From the IMG/VR virus record IMGVR_UViG_3300042905_000279, positions 1 to 27,615 of that record: 27,615 nucleotides of DNA; one strand, written 5' to 3'. Position 1 is the first letter of the stretch; every line of letters begins with the position of its first letter. Below, one piece after another: positions 2,998 to 25,739 of the stretch. The notes under the pieces were generated by a model that saw only the letters and a program-made list of their open reading frames with translations, ran no database searches and was not told where the DNA came from. Origin of the DNA: a virus. Position numbers and translations under genes: made by a program.

Positions 2998-3728
2998 AAG
3001 TATTTATCGCAACACCAATGTACGGTGGTCAGTGTTTCGGCTTCTATGCTCAGTCTTTATTGCAACTAAACAACATGATGCGTGACAAAGAGATCACCAC
3101 CATGATGTCCTTCATGTTCAACGAAAGCCTGATCACCAGAGGACGTAACGCATTGGTTCACCAGTTCCTAAAGACTGACTGCACTCACTTGTTCTTTATT
3201 GACGCTGACATACGCTTCAATCCTGGTGATGTATTCCCTATGCTAGACGCTGACAAAGACATTATCTGTGGCATCTATCCTAAGAAAGAAATCAACTGGT
3301 ATGGCGTTTCTAAGGCGGTAGACGCTGGTGTGTCACCTGATGAGTTGAAGTGGCACACAGGCAGCTTTGTGGTCAACCTGGTGGGCTACTCAGGCGAGGT
3401 AACAGTTCCGGTCAATGAACCTGTAGAGATTTGGAATGGCGGCACAGGCTTCATGATCATCAAGCGGGAGGTTTTCGAGAAGCTGGCAGACCAAGTACCA
3501 ACCTACACCAACGATGTCACAGACTTGGCTGGCAACATCAAGGCTGATGAGATCAAGGAGTTCTTTGCTACCAGCATTGAACCAGGCACAAATCGCTTAC
3601 TGTCAGAGGATTACCACTTCTGCCGTATCTGGCGGGAAGCTGGCGGTCAAGTTCATGCAGCACCCTGGGCGCACCTAGCGCACGTTGGAACCTATGTATT
3701 TGAAGGCGCTCTGACGCCAGCACCATAA
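2994..3728 (+). CDS. glycosyltransferase, GT-A/family 2-like
   Basis: A 244-aa predicted nucleotide-sugar glycosyltransferase of the GT-A fold. The N-terminus MKVFIATPMYGG matches the first strand of phage family-2-like enzymes. ITRGRNALVHQFL (about 47-59) is the conserved basic helix, and THLFFIDADIRFNP places the metal/nucleotide-binding D70-A-D72 motif. CGIYPKKEINW follows the usual 'Y-P-K' strand. A conserved GGTGFMIIKREVFEKL segment and a His-rich C-terminal end (HAAPWAHLAHVGTY) complete the pattern. The length is typical of phage members. The acceptor could be phage DNA bases, a virion protein or host surface sugar; the early operon location slightly favours DNA or host modification. 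The start shares ATGA with the previous stop. Confidence 0.78.
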   Translation: MKVFIATPMYGGQCFGFYAQSLLQLNNMMRDKEITTMMSFMFNESLITRGRNALVHQFLKTDCTHLFFIDADIRFNPGDVFPMLDADKDIICGIYPKKEINWYGVSKAVDAGVSPDELKWHTGSFVVNLVGYSGEVTVPVNEPVEIWNGGTGFMIIKREVFEKLADQVPTYTNDVTDLAGNIKADEIKEFFATSIEPGTNRLLSEDYHFCRIWREAGGQVHAAPWAHLAHVGTYVFEGALTPAP

Positions 3729-6546: not shown

Positions 6547-6747
6547 CTACTCATCCTCATCATCAGCAAACCCTGAACCCCAATCATCATCCGATATCCT
6601 GGCTTTTAGTTGTTCAAGTTTTAACGCTCTGTCGATGATTTTTGACTTGTCGGTCAAACTGGCGGTTGGATCGGACATGGTGGCCTTTAGCAGATCACCG
6701 ATTGCCCTCTCCAACTCTGGATTTATCCCCTTGGTCTTCTTGCTCAT
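6547..6747 (-). CDS. conserved small phage protein with acidic tail (66 aa)
   Basis: A helical protein starting MSKKTKGINPELERAIGDLL, followed by MSDPTASLTDKSKIIDRALK and ending in an acidic WGSGFADDEDE tail. I recognise the pattern from small proteins in aquatic podoviruses. Its basic-then-acidic helical form and size would suit a small packaging factor such as a terminase small subunit, but that is speculative; the large subunit is not in the window to give context. The ATG shares ATGA with the previous stop. Confidence 0.66.
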   Translation of the reverse strand: MSKKTKGINPELERAIGDLLKATMSDPTASLTDKSKIIDRALKLEQLKARISDDDWGSGFADDEDE

Positions 6748-6872
6748 CGCTTGGCTTTACGCTTCTGCATGGGCTGTTCTGGACGCTTCATCTTACGCAT
6801 CGGTTTAATCATGGTCGGAGGTGGTGTTTGATCACCAATACCGGCTTCTTGAGGTCTGTCATTGCGGATCAT
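6744..6872 (-). CDS. small Pro/Lys/Met-rich protein (42 aa)
   Basis: A 42-aa frame with ATG at 6872 overlapping the previous stop (ATGA) and a TGA shared with the next ATG. The sequence is IRNDRPQEAGIGDQTPPPTM followed by a highly basic IKPMRKMKRPEQPMQKRKAKR end. Coupling on both sides in the same strand and the composition shared with neighbouring tiny basic genes support it being real. No domain recognised and probably disordered. Confidence 0.6.
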   Translation of the reverse strand: MIRNDRPQEAGIGDQTPPPTMIKPMRKMKRPEQPMQKRKAKR

Positions 6873-7006
6873 TTTCTTCCTTTCTTTGCTTTTCGAGCAA
6901 CACTAAGAGCAATAGCCACCGCTTGCTTCTGTGGCCTCCCACGATTCATCTCACGACGAATGTTCTTACTAATCGACTTCTGACTAAATCCTTTTGTCAG
7001 CGGCAT
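6869..7006 (-). CDS. small basic conserved phage protein (45 aa)
   Basis: Encodes MPLTKGFSQKSISKNIRREM, followed by NRGRPQKQAVAIALSVARKA and a KKGRK end. The 'G-S-K-IS-NI-xE--GxPQKQAVAIAL--AR' pattern is a small, widespread phage and bacterial family (DUF6496-like), function unknown. GGAGGT lies six bases before the ATG at 7006, inside the end of the 787-aa gene, so translation is efficient. The C-terminus overlaps the following ATG. Confidence 0.78.
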   Translation of the reverse strand: MPLTKGFSQKSISKNIRREMNRGRPQKQAVAIALSVARKAKKGRK

Positions 7007-7008
7007 GA

Positions 7009-9372
7009 TTACCTCCCTGGTTGCATAGACGTTGGCTTTCCAGCACCTGTGAGCGCTTGGTAAGCAGACAAACCCACTTGGGGCGCTACATAGGTCACAG
7101 CGAAATTCTTCAGAGTTCTGCCAAACAGACTTAGTTTCTGCTGCTCTGGCAGTGCCGAATTAGCAATAGCATCTAGTTGCTGGCTGATTTCGTTAATCTT
7201 ATTAGTAGGCATCAAACCTGTCCTGGCTAACGAATCCTTCAGGCTAGTTTGCCAGAAACGCTGTGCGCCGAACACGCCCTGCTGCGCTCTGTCAGACATG
7301 ACCTGACGAATCGCCTGCTCCAGAACTTGCTTACCATTAGGACTAGCCGCAATAGCAGGCGCAACCCGATCCCACAAGGTTCTGTCACCTGACGTAATGA
7401 TCTCTTGGACACGGGCGGCAGGTTCAGCGGTACTCAGGATAGTAGAAGCTTCTTTCCTAGCTGCATCGGTAATCGCTCCAGCAGCCTTCTCGCCTTCCTT
7501 AACCAGTCTGCCAGCCTCTTTCTCACCAATATCCAGCGCCTTACCAGCTTCTCTACCAGCCTGACGCTCTAACGCTTCTTTCCTTGTCGCAACCTTGCCA
7601 GCACCCGCAGCCATGCCTTCAGCACGCTCTAGGTTCATAACGTAGTTGTTAGCGCTAGTTCTCACTTCCGGCAGGGCAGTCAGCCAATCTGAGTTCTGCT
7701 TGCTGGTCAGCCAGTTCCTTGCTGCCTTGGCATCCATGTTGGCAAGGTTCTTAGCCACATAGTTCTTAGCTTCTTGAAGAACCAGGTTCCGATCACCTGT
7801 TAGCGCAATAGCGTCTGCAACTGATTGCTGGCTATTGAACAGCGCAGCAGGCAATGACTTGGCATCCGCTTTGAACTGAGTCGGATCAATCCGATCCATT
7901 GCGGTGGCCTTTGCGCCAGCCTTAGTTCTAAACTTCTCTAGCAAACGTGAAGCAATTTCATACTCGCTTTGCAACACATCATGCGCGTTACCTGCAAACT
8001 TAGACTGAATGTCACTAAGTTTTGCGTAATACTCTTTAGCAATGTTGGAACCAATCGCTGAGTACCCTTCAACATCCTTACCGAAAGCAACATCACCCAA
8101 GCGCCGACGCACATCATCTAGCGCATCAAACGAAGTGGGAAACGTCTTGTAAACAGGATTACCCATCTCATTGACGCCTACTTCCACACGACGCGCTGTT
8201 ACTGCGTCATAGATGTTTTGATAAGCCTTCAACACGCCAGGTTCAGTCACCGGCGCTGTCTTCTGCTGTTGAGCGATTTGGCCTTTCAGCAACTTGTTAC
8301 GGAGGTCTTGTACAAGTGTTTTGTATTCTGGCAATGATTCAACCAGAATACCTTGGCTTTCTTTCGCAGCCACAGCCTGATCACGCAAAGCCTTCTGCTG
8401 CTTGTAAGCCTCTGACCGTTCCAATGATCCGGTTTCAAACCTTTGCAAAATCCTGTCACGCAGTGTTCTGCCCATTTGCGACAGTTCAACAGTTGCGTCA
8501 CCTACCTCACGCAATCCACTCTTTGCTCTTTCTAGCAGCGTCTTTTTAGTTTCCTCTAACTCGCCTCTAGTAGCAGCCAGGCGAACACCCTTCTCACGTT
8601 CTTCTTTAGATACCTGCTGTGCTGTGCTGCGAACACCACTCGCCTGCGTTCCAGCCGTGCTTCTAGCTAAGTTGGCTTCCGCTTCTGCTACGTTGGTAGC
8701 TTTGCTAACAGAATCAGAAATGGTGTCGTAAATCTTTCTCTGAGCGTCAGTTGTAAAAGGTGATTGGCGCAGTTCGTTAATCCGCTGCATTACCAGTTCA
8801 CGCTGCTTGCCTGCCAGATTTGTCACGTTGACATCTTGCATGACGCTTCTTAGGACATCATAAGTAGCGCCAACAGCAGGGTTTGTTAGCTTATTAAAAA
8901 CATTTCTTACCGCCCCAACACCTTTAGCGGTGCTAGTCAGTGTTTCAACCGGCAATAAACCACCAACAACTCTCGCCGTTTCTGCCGCCCAAGGTGGAGC
9001 GCCAAACACTTCAGCCGCCTGACCTGCTGTTTCGCTAGACGCCCCGCCAAAACCACCAGCCAAAGAACCAAGCGCACGACCTTTAGCGCCGGTCATAGAA
9101 GGTGCTGCGGCTTTCATTGCTGTACCTGCGGCTCTTACTGGCGCATACGGAACCTGTTCTAATAACCGGCCTGTACCAAAAGCAATCTCCGGCGAAAAAG
9201 CGCCAGCAGCAGTACCAACACCTGTCGCAACACCAATGTCTTCTAAACGCTGTCCAAACGACTTTTCAGGTGATTCTGTCGAAGCTTTAGGCGCTGAAGG
9301 CGCTTTAGGTGTCGGCAGGTCGCTGAAGTCTGTTTGCGACGGTTTTGGTAGATCGCTAATGTCAACAGCCAT
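7009..9372 (-). CDS. large internal virion/ejection protein candidate (787 aa)
   Basis: A long Ala-rich protein. The N-terminus is Pro/Asp-rich (ISDLPKP..DFSDLPTPKAPS), residues about 45-125 are a Gly/Ala-rich hydrophobic region (GVATGVGTAAGAF, RALGSLAGGFGGA), and about 150-660 is mostly helical with several heptad-like stretches (for example EEREKGVRLAATRGELEETK and the region with EREAGKALDIGEKEAGRL). The C-terminus ends with a hydrophobic VGLSAYQALTGAG. This layout fits the large ejection or internal-core proteins of podoviruses, which form a DNA conduit in the host envelope. No transglycosylase or peptidase motif was seen. It is the last of four consecutive large late proteins. Size and position support the role; sequence does not prove it. 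Confidence 0.62.
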   Translation of the reverse strand: MAVDISDLPKPSQTDFSDLPTPKAPSAPKASTESPEKSFGQRLEDIGVATGVGTAAGAFSPEIAFGTGRLLEQVPYAPVRAAGTAMKAAAPSMTGAKGRALGSLAGGFGGASSETAGQAAEVFGAPPWAAETARVVGGLLPVETLTSTAKGVGAVRNVFNKLTNPAVGATYDVLRSVMQDVNVTNLAGKQRELVMQRINELRQSPFTTDAQRKIYDTISDSVSKATNVAEAEANLARSTAGTQASGVRSTAQQVSKEEREKGVRLAATRGELEETKKTLLERAKSGLREVGDATVELSQMGRTLRDRILQRFETGSLERSEAYKQQKALRDQAVAAKESQGILVESLPEYKTLVQDLRNKLLKGQIAQQQKTAPVTEPGVLKAYQNIYDAVTARRVEVGVNEMGNPVYKTFPTSFDALDDVRRRLGDVAFGKDVEGYSAIGSNIAKEYYAKLSDIQSKFAGNAHDVLQSEYEIASRLLEKFRTKAGAKATAMDRIDPTQFKADAKSLPAALFNSQQSVADAIALTGDRNLVLQEAKNYVAKNLANMDAKAARNWLTSKQNSDWLTALPEVRTSANNYVMNLERAEGMAAGAGKVATRKEALERQAGREAGKALDIGEKEAGRLVKEGEKAAGAITDAARKEASTILSTAEPAARVQEIITSGDRTLWDRVAPAIAASPNGKQVLEQAIRQVMSDRAQQGVFGAQRFWQTSLKDSLARTGLMPTNKINEISQQLDAIANSALPEQQKLSLFGRTLKNFAVTYVAPQVGLSAYQALTGAGKPTSMQPGR

Positions 9373-17341: not shown

Positions 17342-18991
17342 TTAGTTAAGTTTAATAATTACGATTCCAGAGCCGCCTGAAACGCCCGCATTTGCTGGAT
17401 TTCCAATAGAGCCGCCACCGCCACCGCCAGTATTTGTTGTTCCGGCAACTCCCTGCGCCCCAAGATTACCGCCTCCCCTTCCTCCGCCACCAGCTCCACC
17501 TGTTCCCCCTGTGCCACCTGGTGCGTTAGCGGAGCCGCCACCACCACCAGCATAGGTAACTGAACTGCCTGTAATTGAAGAAGCAGTGCCACTTCCGCCA
17601 TTACCCCCAACGCCGCTTGCTCCATTAGAACCAGTTGCGTTAGCCCCTCCACCGCCACCAGCGGCTGTTGAATTGGCAAGACCTGCCGTTGAGTTACCTC
17701 CATTATTTCCCTGTGACGGGCTTACTGAGGGAGTATTGCCAGAGCCTCCTGTTCCAGCGGTATTACCTAATGAACTAATACCAGCGCCGCCTCCTGATCC
17801 TCCAGATTTTCCGTTTAATGCTGTTCCATCGGTACTGTTCCTGCCGCCACCGCCGCCACCACCAGCCGAAGTTACTGTACTAAAAATCGAATTAGAGCCG
17901 TTTGCTCCATTGGTGGCCGTTCCGTTCGGACTTGCCGCGCCACCCGCGCCGCCGCCCCCAATAGTTATCGTATAAGTAGTTCCAGCGGTAACGGATAAGC
18001 CTGCTCCTGTTCTAAATCCACCAGCGCCGCCACCACCACCGGTAGCCCCACCACTACCACCACCGCCGCCTACAACTAAATAATCAACACTACTTACACC
18101 CGATGGGCAAGTCCATTGGCTTGATGCATTAAAACTTAAAATTCTAGCTGTTGGTAAAGCGTATTTAATAATGACAATTCCAGAGCCACCGATGCCTGCT
18201 GTTTCATTACCTCCACCACCACCACCACCTGTGTTGGCTGTTCCGGAAGTTGCTATAGGGGCATCGTTATATTCACCACCATTTCCACCACCACCAACGC
18301 CACCAGTTCCTCTGGTATCAGCAAAAGATGATCCGCCTCCACCACCAGCATAAGTTATAGACATACCAGAAATCACTGATGCGGTTCCAGCCCCACCATT
18401 TCCTGCCGCAGAAGTAGTGCCGTTAGCGCCAACAGCGGAAGCGCCACCACCACCACCCGAATTTAAATTAGCGCTATTTCCATTTCTGTTATACGCAGCG
18501 CCACCATTATTTCCTTGTGATGGAGATGTTGATGGCGTATTACCAGCGCCTCCTGCGGTCGTGCCTGATCCATTAGTTGTTCCACCACCGCCACCAGAAC
18601 CGCCAGTTCCACCAGGATATGCGGTCGCACTATTAGGCGCTAAACCACCATTCCCGCCACCATTAGATGTAATCGTAGAAAAAACTGAGTTGCCACCTTT
18701 AGTTGTTGCCGCGCCACCGCCACCAATAGTTACTGTGTAAGTCGTGCCACCAGTGACAGATAAGCCAGTTCCAGTCCTAAATCCACCAGCACCACCACCG
18801 CCACCACAATAACCATCTAAACCAGCGCCGCCGCCCCCGCCGCCCGCAACGACAAGATATTCAACCTCTGATACTTCTGTTGGGCAAGTCCACGATCCGC
18901 TAGTTGTAAAAGTTTCTACTATGGTTATAGCAATATTGCCGCCACCACCAGCGCCGTAACCCATTAAAAGGGCTTGTAGGATGCCTGTCAT
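17342..18991 (-). CDS. glycine-rich tail adhesin with duplicated module (549 aa)
   Basis: Two tandem modules of about 250-265 aa. Each begins WTCP...VEYLVV/VDYLVV with a poly-Gly tract, then GAGGFRTGxGLSVTxGTTYT, IGGGGA, a variable GNTPSxSPSQGNNGG region, YAGGGGGS and GGSGIVIIK. This matches the Gly_rich_2-like glycine-rich domains of phage adhesins, of which phage S16 gp38 shows a polyglycine-II sandwich. Module 1 is about residues 24-275, module 2 about 282-549. ATG 18991 is chosen since it shares ATGA with the previous stop; an earlier in-frame ATG at 19057 would overlap that gene by 70 nt. Probably the receptor-binding tip of the fibre. Confidence 0.78.
   Translation of the reverse strand: MTGILQALLMGYGAGGGGNIAITIVETFTTSGSWTCPTEVSEVEYLVVAGGGGGGAGLDGYCGGGGGAGGFRTGTGLSVTGGTTYTVTIGGGGAATTKGGNSVFSTITSNGGGNGGLAPNSATAYPGGTGGSGGGGGTTNGSGTTAGGAGNTPSTSPSQGNNGGAAYNRNGNSANLNSGGGGGASAVGANGTTSAAGNGGAGTASVISGMSITYAGGGGGSSFADTRGTGGVGGGGNGGEYNDAPIATSGTANTGGGGGGGNETAGIGGSGIVIIKYALPTARILSFNASSQWTCPSGVSSVDYLVVGGGGGSGGATGGGGGAGGFRTGAGLSVTAGTTYTITIGGGGAGGAASPNGTATNGANGSNSIFSTVTSAGGGGGGGRNSTDGTALNGKSGGSGGGAGISSLGNTAGTGGSGNTPSVSPSQGNNGGNSTAGLANSTAAGGGGGANATGSNGASGVGGNGGSGTASSITGSSVTYAGGGGGSANAPGGTGGTGGAGGGGRGGGNLGAQGVAGTTNTGGGGGGSIGNPANAGVSGGSGIVIIKLN
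17345..18150 (-). repeat. glycine-rich module, copy 2 of 2
   Basis: Second copy, running from 'ARILSFNASSQWTCP' to 'GSGIVIIKLN' at the protein's end. It shares the LVVxGGGG, FRTGAGLSV, GNTPSVSPSQGNNGG and SxTYAGGGGGS landmarks with copy 1 but differs in loop lengths, which suggests an old duplication followed by divergence. Confidence 0.75.
18163..18930 (-). repeat. glycine-rich module, copy 1 of 2
   Basis: Coding repeat running from the 'ETFTTSGSWTCP' start to the 'GIVIIKYALPTA' end of the adhesin gene. It aligns along its length with the following copy at 17345-18150, with conserved ends and a more variable middle. On the + strand it appears as CCACCACC-type tracts that could slip in replication. 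Confidence 0.75.
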
Positions 18992-19590: not shown

Positions 19591-20232
19591 TTAGAACCTC
19601 ACTCTCAATTCATGTTCATACTCAAAACCGTTAATCACCATCGCTGATGAATTAGAAGTAACGGTCATACCAAGATATTTACCCCATTGCTGCGCGTCAG
19701 TCTTGTATAAAACATAACCAACATCGCCAGTCCAATCAACTTCAGCAGACGAATTATTGATCCAAGGAATTACAAATCCAAAATTATTGATCCAGTTTAC
19801 AAAGTTACCAAGCAAATAAGGTGGACTAGAATTGGTTTCGCTATCGACGGTTGTGGATAACAATCCTGGGCCAGAGATAGTTGCTTCAATACCAATCTTT
19901 AATGCCTGCTTTGTTCTAATCGGATCGGTCATCGGCATTAGTGCTGTTTCAATAATGCTTTCGATCATGCTTGTTGGATCGGAATATAGATACACTAAGT
20001 CCGTTCCAGTTGTTCCATACATATTGATCTTGCCGCCAGTGGGCAGCGAAGTTATCAACTTTAGATTTGAATTCTGGCTGGTAAAAAACCATTTTTTATC
20101 AAAAAACACCGCCTGAATGTACCGATAAGTTCCGTTGTAGTTGTAACGAATATTGAATGCCGCACACAGAATGTTGTTGATCAGTACCTGACCACCAGTA
20201 ATTACTGCCGTAGTGAAATCAATTCCTGGGAA
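19591..20232 (-). pseudogene. nozzle-like protein, C-terminal part (after frameshift)
   Basis: This frame continues the protein of 20202-21557 after a -1 shift (or a 1-base deletion) near 20232. It reads FPGIDFTTAVITGGQVLINN directly, then ILCAAFNIRYNYNGTYRYIQ and AVFFDKKWFFTSQNSNLKLI. The first 41 codons have no own start; the first usable codon is a GTG at 20109, inside the conserved run, so this is not an independent gene. The C-terminal 120 residues include DPIRTKQALKIGIEATISGP and end EYEHELRVRF, resembling the end of large nozzle or tail-tube proteins. Total rejoined length is about 655 aa. Confidence 0.7.
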
Positions 20233-21557
20233 ACACCATCTAACGGGTCTGAAATTTTCGATGTGGTCGAACCCACCAACGCATACGCCCCGTATTCGTT
20301 CATAAATAATACTGAACGGAAGAACGGGAAAATAGCGCCTGGCAATCGAGTTCCTACCGACGCGCTAACGTTAGTATTTGTGAAAATTGTCGTGCCAAGG
20401 TTTGTCACCCTGACATCAGAAAAGACGTTAATGCTGTCTTCGCCAAAAATGTACAGAAAGTTATTAGCAGACAGAATTTGAACAATATTGCTGTGAAGCG
20501 TGTTGTCCGTCAGAGTAAGTGCGCCAGCAGAAACGCTTGTAAAGTCGCTGTAGCTATCAGCAGCAGAATAAGTAACCGTTCTTCCCTGGCTAACCCAAGT
20601 TCGTCCTGAGAAGGTTTCGATTCCTGAGATTGGGTCGGTAAGGATGACTGCTTTAGCCGCCGCATTGTTTCCCCCACCACCAGAAATCGTAACGGTAATG
20701 TTTGCGCTGTTCGTGTAGCCAGAACCAGGGTTGGTCATGATTACGCGAGTTATTTGACCACCTGACACAATCGCGGAGCCTGCTGCATTAGCGCCGCCAC
20801 CACCAGCAATAGTGATGGTTATGTTTGATCCATTGGTGTATCCAGTTCCACCGTTTGTTATTAAAACAGATACGGTTCCTACTTTGAATGTAGAAAGACT
20901 AGCAATCGCTGTGGCTGCATTGCTGCTACCGCCACCAGTAATGGTAACTGTTGGGGGTGATGTATAACCTGATCCCGCATCGGTCAACGTAATAAACGTA
21001 ACTGCATTGGCAGTAACAGTAGCTTGAGCCGTTGCAGGAACACCACCAGTTTCATTTGGGGCTGAAATAATAACGGCTGGTGTGCTTGTGTATCCGCTGC
21101 CAGCCTTAGTAATTGCTATTGATCCAACAGAGCCAACAGATACAAGATTAGTACCATCCCAAGAATAAACGCCTTTTTGAGGATCACCAATCAGTATCCT
21201 TTCGCTTTTCCACTGCGTGACGTTAATTCCGCTATTAGAAAACGTACCAGTTACAGCAACATTGCTTTTTGTGTAATTGGTTACATTGATAGCTTCTGCG
21301 CGACCGTCTTCGCAAAACCCTAAAACCAAATCCGAATTGTTAATGTTGCAGGATGTTAGGGTTGTAACGGTGTTGGCAAATGTAACGTTTGCAGTGGTGT
21401 AGGTCGGAACAATCTTTAAGTTCGCATACCCAATAGGCATGGCGTTTTCCAGCCAGGAAAACTCATCCTTATCAATAGCCGTGCGGTTAGCCTTGGTGTT
21501 TACACCTCTAAAGTTCTTGACTACCTCGTAGCTTTTCTTTTGCTCTGTCGCAGCCAT
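20202..21557 (-). pseudogene. nozzle-like tail protein, N-terminal part (451 aa, ends early)
   Basis: A likely tail nozzle or tubular protein attached to the adaptor encoded just upstream. The N-terminus SYEVVKNFRGVNTKANRTAI and DKDEFSWLENAMPI is typical of such large podovirus tail proteins. Residues 143-306 hold four GSGYT-type repeats. Residues 317-440 are again beta-rich (FSGRTWVSQGRTVTYSAADS, LFMNEYGAYALVGSTTSKIS). The frame ends 9 codons after the DPLDG motif at 438-441, but the last 9 residues (SQELISLRQ) are out of register, since the conserved continuation lies in the next frame. The ATG follows the adaptor stop by 2 nt. Sequencing or assembly error, mutation or recoding all remain open. 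Confidence 0.72.
20228..20237 (-). other. frameshift point in nozzle-like gene
   Basis: The coding strand reads GGTGTTTCCC here. In the upstream frame this is Gly-Val-Ser, leading to a stop. Moving back one base after GTT gives Val-Phe-Pro-Gly and restores a long open frame. An extra T in the T-run would give the same repair. The site has no standard X-XXY-YYZ heptamer in the upstream frame. Confidence 0.7.
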
Positions 21558-21559
21558 AA

Positions 21560-22405
21560 TTAGAATGGAGTGCTATAAGGGTCAGGCATTCGCCTTGTGA
21601 ACGTCGTGTTGAGTACAGAGCGAACCTTGCTGACATACTGCTGATAGAAAATTTCAGATTCGCCATAAGACTGTTCTTTGAACTTCGCCGTATACGCTGC
21701 GTAGTAAGCAACAGGTGTTGTATACGGATCAATAATTGGGTCTACGTCCGTGCTATTAACCAAAGGCAACGGCAGGACTGTTGAATCTACCTCAATCGTG
21801 TAGACCTCATCAGGAACCGGAGAAATGTAAATTTGGTTTTGACCAAACACTGAAAACGCCACCGGACGCCCAATGTAATTCTGCCAATACCGTAATTGTG
21901 CGTTGAACTGAGTCCAGGGCAGATAAGACAGTGGATAGCGACTGTTGCCCCAAAAAACATTGATGTTCAAAATGTCTAGCGTTCGATCTCCTTCTGGCAA
22001 ACTGCCATAAGAAATAATCTCGCAATTCCCAACATATTGAATTTCTGCCGTGCCGTTATAGAAAGGCGCGGTTGGAGGAAAAGTAGCCGAGGAGTCTGGG
22101 AAAGGTGGCGGGTTAGCATCCGTCGTTCCAGCTACGGTCACTACATAAACGAAGATGTTTGAGAAAACCAAGTCACCAACATTTAGTGCGGTATTTGCCG
22201 CCCACTTCGTTGGATTGCCAGAATAGCCAACAGGCGCTATAGGCGTTTGAGCAACTTGTAGTTTTCTTAAACAGCCAGTATCTCTGGCAACACGCTCCCG
22301 CGCCCCGTTGATGTAATCAGTTAGTTCGGGATCGGAATAAAAGTTTCCATTGGCGTCGTGCAGAAGCCTTCTAACTTCCGTGATGTAGCCGTAGAGCGTT
22401 GCCAT
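21560..22405 (-). CDS. head-tail adaptor (SU10-adaptor-like, 281 aa)
   Basis: A predicted adaptor of the type placed below the portal in podoviruses such as SU10. The N-terminus is LYGYITEVRRLLHDANGNFY and SDPELTDYINGARERVARDT, the hallmark helix pair of this family. Residues about 50-110 form a beta-rich insertion (ALNVGDLVFSNIFVYVVTVA), and a later part has QLRYWQNYIGRPVAFSVFGQ and IYISPVPDEVYTIEVDSTVL. A C-terminal helix KFKEQSYGESEIFYQQYVSK closes it. Gene order capsid-adaptor-nozzle supports the call. The start follows the previous gene by 13 nt with GGTCTTAA upstream. Confidence 0.74.
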   Translation of the reverse strand: MATLYGYITEVRRLLHDANGNFYSDPELTDYINGARERVARDTGCLRKLQVAQTPIAPVGYSGNPTKWAANTALNVGDLVFSNIFVYVVTVAGTTDANPPPFPDSSATFPPTAPFYNGTAEIQYVGNCEIISYGSLPEGDRTLDILNINVFWGNSRYPLSYLPWTQFNAQLRYWQNYIGRPVAFSVFGQNQIYISPVPDEVYTIEVDSTVLPLPLVNSTDVDPIIDPYTTPVAYYAAYTAKFKEQSYGESEIFYQQYVSKVRSVLNTTFTRRMPDPYSTPF

Positions 22406-25100: not shown

Positions 25101-25286
25101 TTAAACAACCCGCTTACCGTCACCAGGCTTTTGAACTTGCATCTTGTTCTTGCTGCCTGTTGAAGCGGGGTTTTTCAGACCGCCAAACTCCGAAAAACGT
25201 GGAGTGTTAACGATTTGACCATTCTGCTGGTTGTTGTCGGTAGGGCGGCGAGGTGCAGCAGCACCGCGAGGCTTAAATAAATCCAT
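25101..25286 (-). CDS. small basic protein (61 aa)
   Basis: MDLFKPRGAAAPRRPTDNNQ, followed by QNGQIVNTPRFSEFGGLKNP and a Lys/Gly-rich end. Disordered and basic; no family recognised. AAGGAGAAATC before the ATG gives a strong start. Located between the 147-aa gene and the scaffold. Confidence 0.62.
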   Translation of the reverse strand: MDLFKPRGAAAPRRPTDNNQQNGQIVNTPRFSEFGGLKNPASTGSKNKMQVQKPGDGKRVV

Positions 25287-25295
25287 GATTTCTCC

Positions 25296-25739
25296 TTACA
25301 TTGTTTGAGGGGTTGCGCCTGGCATCTGCATACCAGGTATTGCTGGCGCTGCTGCCAAAGCCTTACCTTCCGGCGTTGCGCCACCCGCCTGTGGAAGTGC
25401 CTGTAGCATCTGAAGAATCTCAGATTGCTTCAATTCGTCAATGGATTCTTTCTTGCTACCAATTACACCAGTCAAAGTGCGTAGCGCAGACAAGACTTTA
25501 ACGCCTTCCGGCGAACTGCTACCCAAAGCCGGTAGCGCTCTTTGAATTAAGTCCATTGCCAGGCCTAAATTGACCATTGCGCCTTCGCGATTGCCCATTT
25601 GAGGTTCTGGCGTAGACATTGGGGCAGACATTGGCGGCGTCATATCCGTTGCAGAGGCCTCTGAGGCCATAGGCGAAGGTTGCTGCGGCCCTTGCTGGCT
25701 ACGCATCATCTTCATCAGTTGATCCGGTGGCACGCTCAT
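25296..25739 (-). CDS. hypothetical Met/Pro/Gln-rich protein (147 aa)
   Basis: N-terminal third is low-complexity Pro/Met/Ser/Gln (MMRSQQGPQQPSPMASEASA). A central helical part follows, NLGLAMDLIQRALPALGSSS and GVKVLSALRTLTGVIGSKKE, then LKQSEILQMLQALPQ and a Gly/Pro-rich tail. No known family; a head-assembly accessory by place. GGGG is about 6 nt before the ATG, and a promoter-like element sits 27-55 nt upstream. Confidence 0.62.
   Translation of the reverse strand: MSVPPDQLMKMMRSQQGPQQPSPMASEASATDMTPPMSAPMSTPEPQMGNREGAMVNLGLAMDLIQRALPALGSSSPEGVKVLSALRTLTGVIGSKKESIDELKQSEILQMLQALPQAGGATPEGKALAAAPAIPGMQMPGATPQTM

Follow-up and report, generated by a model that had tools for sequence, protein, structure and literature searches.

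The window, the whole 27,615-nucleotide stretch of viral DNA that we analysed, carries on its minus strand a putative tail gene that is divided between two reading frames, one running from 21557 to 20202 and the other ending at 19591; the initial annotation had described this split, and its coordinates are right. In particular, the first frame begins with ATG at 21557 and, after 451 codons (451 aa), ends at TAA 20204–20202, the C-terminal end of its product (20202–21557, minus strand) reading ...SDPLDGVSQELISLRQ*. The second frame lies one base back on the same strand, is open from 20364 to a stop at 19591 and continues the same protein, the overlap of the two frames (from 20364 to the stop of the first) being about 162 bases. 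From 20232 to 19591 the second frame reads FPGIDFTTAVITGG..., carrying FPGIDFTTAVITGGQVLINNILCAAFNIRYN... from 20232 onward, and it contains no ATG, GTG or TTG before GTG 20109, which is situated well within the conserved part. Because a SDPLDGVFPGIDFTT-like peptide sits in a single frame in 80 related loci, the homology crosses between the frames of the window at a run of T residues at 20231–20233. The features of the locus are these:

20202–21557, minus strand: N-terminal part of the putative tail (nozzle or P22 gp10-like) gene, with an early TAA at 20204–20202; its first 442 codons align with relatives
19591–20232, minus strand: C-terminal part of the same tail gene, in the second frame, comprising 213 conserved codons and the stop
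20231–20233, minus strand: run of three T residues, the site of a one-base indel on alignment to the closest relative (L001), which has four
20325–20331, minus strand: T TTC CCG heptamer within the overlap of the two frames, regarded as a coincidence
21560–22405, minus strand: neighbouring gene for an SU10-type adaptor protein (PF24175, 49.5 bits against a cut-off of 27)

Searching IMG/VR with the 213 C-terminal codons, we obtained 383 relatives and kept 80. In none of these 80 loci is the frame interrupted at the homologous point, and the whole tail gene forms one open reading frame, usually of about 655 aa, in 78; the remaining two are L078, which is cut by the end of its contig, and L059, which has a one-base break of its own elsewhere. 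In L001 the gene encodes 655 aa, the length that had been estimated for the joined product, and L001 is 99% identical to the window across both parts. Aligned relatives are 60–93% identical to L001, and the gene sits after the adaptor gene. A DNA-pattern search yielded a further 78 loci, some of them on the same contigs as the 80, that are continuous across the site; a length filter flagged six of these, five being shorter genes or the L007 contig and the sixth, L157, ceasing to resemble the family close to the end of the sequence compared. Two deposited GenBank phage genomes (MW202825.1 and MW202753.1) have a single annotated gene of 1989 bases. The homologues in L001, L002 and others, and in the two GenBank genomes, thus occupy the same place after the adaptor gene; however, their frame is continuous across the site, whereas that of the window is broken. 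Alignment of homologues, which the initial annotation had proposed as a check on its view that the two frames derive from a single gene, bears that view out and contradicts an origin in two separate genes.

Other irregularities of the same gene were apparent among the relatives. At about position 3355 of L059, a GGG run that its near-twin L061 retains is one G shorter, and one-base breaks do therefore occur sporadically in these contigs. At about position 3058, L007 lacks some 72 codons, in frame, that are present in the near-identical L011, which reflects either assembly collapse or a real deletion. (Note that a survey of 81 contigs for sporadic frame switches flagged the window alone yet missed the known break in L059, so the survey provides no reliable base rate.)

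L001 is 97% identical to the window at the DNA level over 5.3 kb, and its four T residues, as against three in the window (20231–20233), place the change in the T run, where it had been suspected to lie. This is the sole one-base indel in the 5.3-kb alignment; the remaining two gaps fall at 18040–18044, in a fast-changing fibre-like gene. In scans of viral contigs from which records very near the window may have been left out, the exact allele of the window was found in no other IMG/VR contig, the exact intact form was found in L001 alone, and the family consensus, written as a degenerate pattern, had no matches in its shifted form and at least 120 in its intact form. Among the contigs scanned, the split therefore occurs in the window record only, and its close homologues are intact. 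Beyond the indel, the window and L001 differ at 10 of 639 bases, eight of them third codon positions (dN 0.004, dS 0.059, dN/dS about 0.07), and the changes specific to the window, relative to L001 and to more distant relatives, are nearly all silent. The C-terminal part is thus still under purifying selection, and the substitution pattern implies that its frame was constrained up to a very recent time, as expected of an error or a very young mutation rather than of gene decay.

Comparison with the open frames of relatives revealed one well-supported frame switch in the window, at the break in the tail gene; the few others involved antisense frames, or one seen in a single relative. Nearly all other genes of the window align unbroken with a relative; two small genes have no counterpart in the contigs used for comparison, and a few genes that are long or variable match over only some of their length. 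On these alignments the record is not error-ridden, and the break is a single event. Elsewhere in the window, the end of the fibre-like gene (17342–18060) diverges fast and shows gaps relative to the otherwise 97% identical L001, a pattern that would fit exchange of the fibre tip. In L087, at about 6670–7029, one open frame joins homologues of the end of the window gene at 25296–25739 and of the gene at 25101–25286, which are separate in the window.

The genome belongs with the SU10-like short-tailed phages in that the window encodes both an SU10-type portal protein (PF23899, 42.4 bits against a cut-off of 30) and the SU10-type adaptor, as does SU10 itself. Pfam named neither half of the split gene nor its full-length relatives, no PDB sequence was matched significantly in a profile search, and PHROG matches, which fell mostly in inserted glycine-rich repeats (residues 130–310, approximately), did not identify the gene. 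These GSGYTS...GGGG repeats (20630–21140 in the window) vary in number and kind among the relatives, for example in L061, L144 and L150, and the parts that flank them are conserved. An AlphaFold2 model of the L001 protein, of low confidence (mean pLDDT 56.7), aligns over residues ~45–530 with β-propellers, with a repeat insertion. Its best viral fold match was A0A6J5L2T0 from an uncultured Caudovirales phage (45% identity, E 1.2e-40), a protein named as the DNA-stabilising P22 Gp10 that is one continuous chain of 738 aa, unlike the product of the split gene; weak fold matches in the PDB were to the Kp7 tail complex and the PhiM1 nozzle complex. The SU10 nozzle protein, gp17, has 1005 aa and comprises platform, seven-bladed propeller and nozzle domains (PMC9509320), and the model suggests a likeness to it in a propeller interrupted by inserted repeats. 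A profile comparison by hhalign with the one gp17 sequence of SU10, an insensitive target, gave no match (probability 0.4%), but the SU10 nozzle protein itself has no detectable sequence similarity to that of T7 (PMC9509320), and the absence of similarity is therefore not decisive. The description of the gene as nozzle-like is accordingly plausible on the strength of the propeller-like model, the weak Kp7 and PhiM1 matches and the strong match to the protein named P22 Gp10, but finds no counterpart in the SU10 gp17 sequence; overall, the gene looks like that of a β-propeller tail protein consistent with a nozzle or P22 gp10-like role, an assignment that is plausible but weakly supported. According to the same model, a protein that breaks off after residue 442 would lack the C-terminal part as well as the last stretch of the propeller.

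The full protein could be restored from the window allele by recoding, through a −1 ribosomal shift (programmed or compensatory) or slippage in transcription. Either would accommodate both the frame overlap of about 162 bases and the purifying selection retained beyond the break point, but we regard recoding as very unlikely. The relatives are read across the point in a single frame, the window allele is unique, and no slippery signal is conserved: among the 80 relatives, the nine bases that make up the site occur in 26 forms, and the T run is two to four long. A run of only three bases makes a poor site for slippage, and no slippery sequence was found at 20231–20234. The initial annotation had stated that no canonical slippery heptamer fits the frame, which is true of the transition itself but not of the overlap, where one heptamer, T TTC CCG at 20331–20325, has the X XXY YYZ shape; the same heptamer occurs in 31 of the 80 relatives, none of which requires a shift, and a shift there would exchange about 33 conserved residues for others. 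A programmed frameshift is identified by a site that its homologues conserve (GeneTack, PMC3711429), which is not the case here. A new decoding signal is very unlikely to underlie the split, and the chance is smaller still that the shortened run is truly present in the phage and that full-length tail protein arises from it through a non-canonical −1 shift at a place with no recognised signal. Least probable of all is that there are two separate genes, the second starting internally after the stop: GTG 20109 does open a 172-aa frame, but no relative examined is split into two genes here, 41 conserved residues would be lost, and no good ribosome-binding site precedes this GTG (−3.0 kcal/mol, not above a background whose mean is −2.2).

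We consider it most likely, with a probability of roughly 0.75, that the split is a one-base indel unique to the assembled record, in a short T run, that arose through sequencing or assembly error. One T would have been lost at that step from an otherwise intact, conserved tail gene, and would be absent from the record only, not from the phage. We favour an error because the relatives are open across the point without exception and the allele is in no other record, because the frame is conserved beyond the indel and sporadic breaks such as that in L059 occur in the collection, because L001 differs by one T and by no other one-base indel in 5.3 kb, and because the window has no other supported frame switch. 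Indeed, for BLASTP-validated singleton frameshifts the GeneTack survey expects a sequencing error and not a genuine indel (PMC3711429); its singleton genes are likewise unique in their families, with intact homologues, although, unlike them, the window gene sits in a metagenomic virus contig. (A search of the literature on indel errors in viral contigs found nothing of use.) Against an error, a run of four T residues is short for a typical homopolymer error, and the sequence would look no different if the sampled phage had truly mutated, provided that this happened recently. In that case the sampled genome would have lost one base very recently and its tail gene would be inactive; the genome could be that of a defective phage or prophage, or the deletion could be a minor variant taken up into the consensus. 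Such a deletion would fit all of the sequence facts if too young for further damage to have accumulated, but we regard it as less likely: the truncated product would, as the model suggests, lose the propeller end and C-terminal part of a highly conserved protein, so that such phages should be defective and rare, and no other gene of the window has decayed. The initial annotation had ranked error or recoding above decay; the preference for error over decay stands, and recoding falls away given the absence of a shift in relatives, the unconserved site and the singleton allele.

With error as the preferred reading, the two open reading frames are best recorded as one interrupted tail gene and not as two genes, a gene loss or a case of recoding. 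A real indel would make this the record of a phage whose tail gene is broken.
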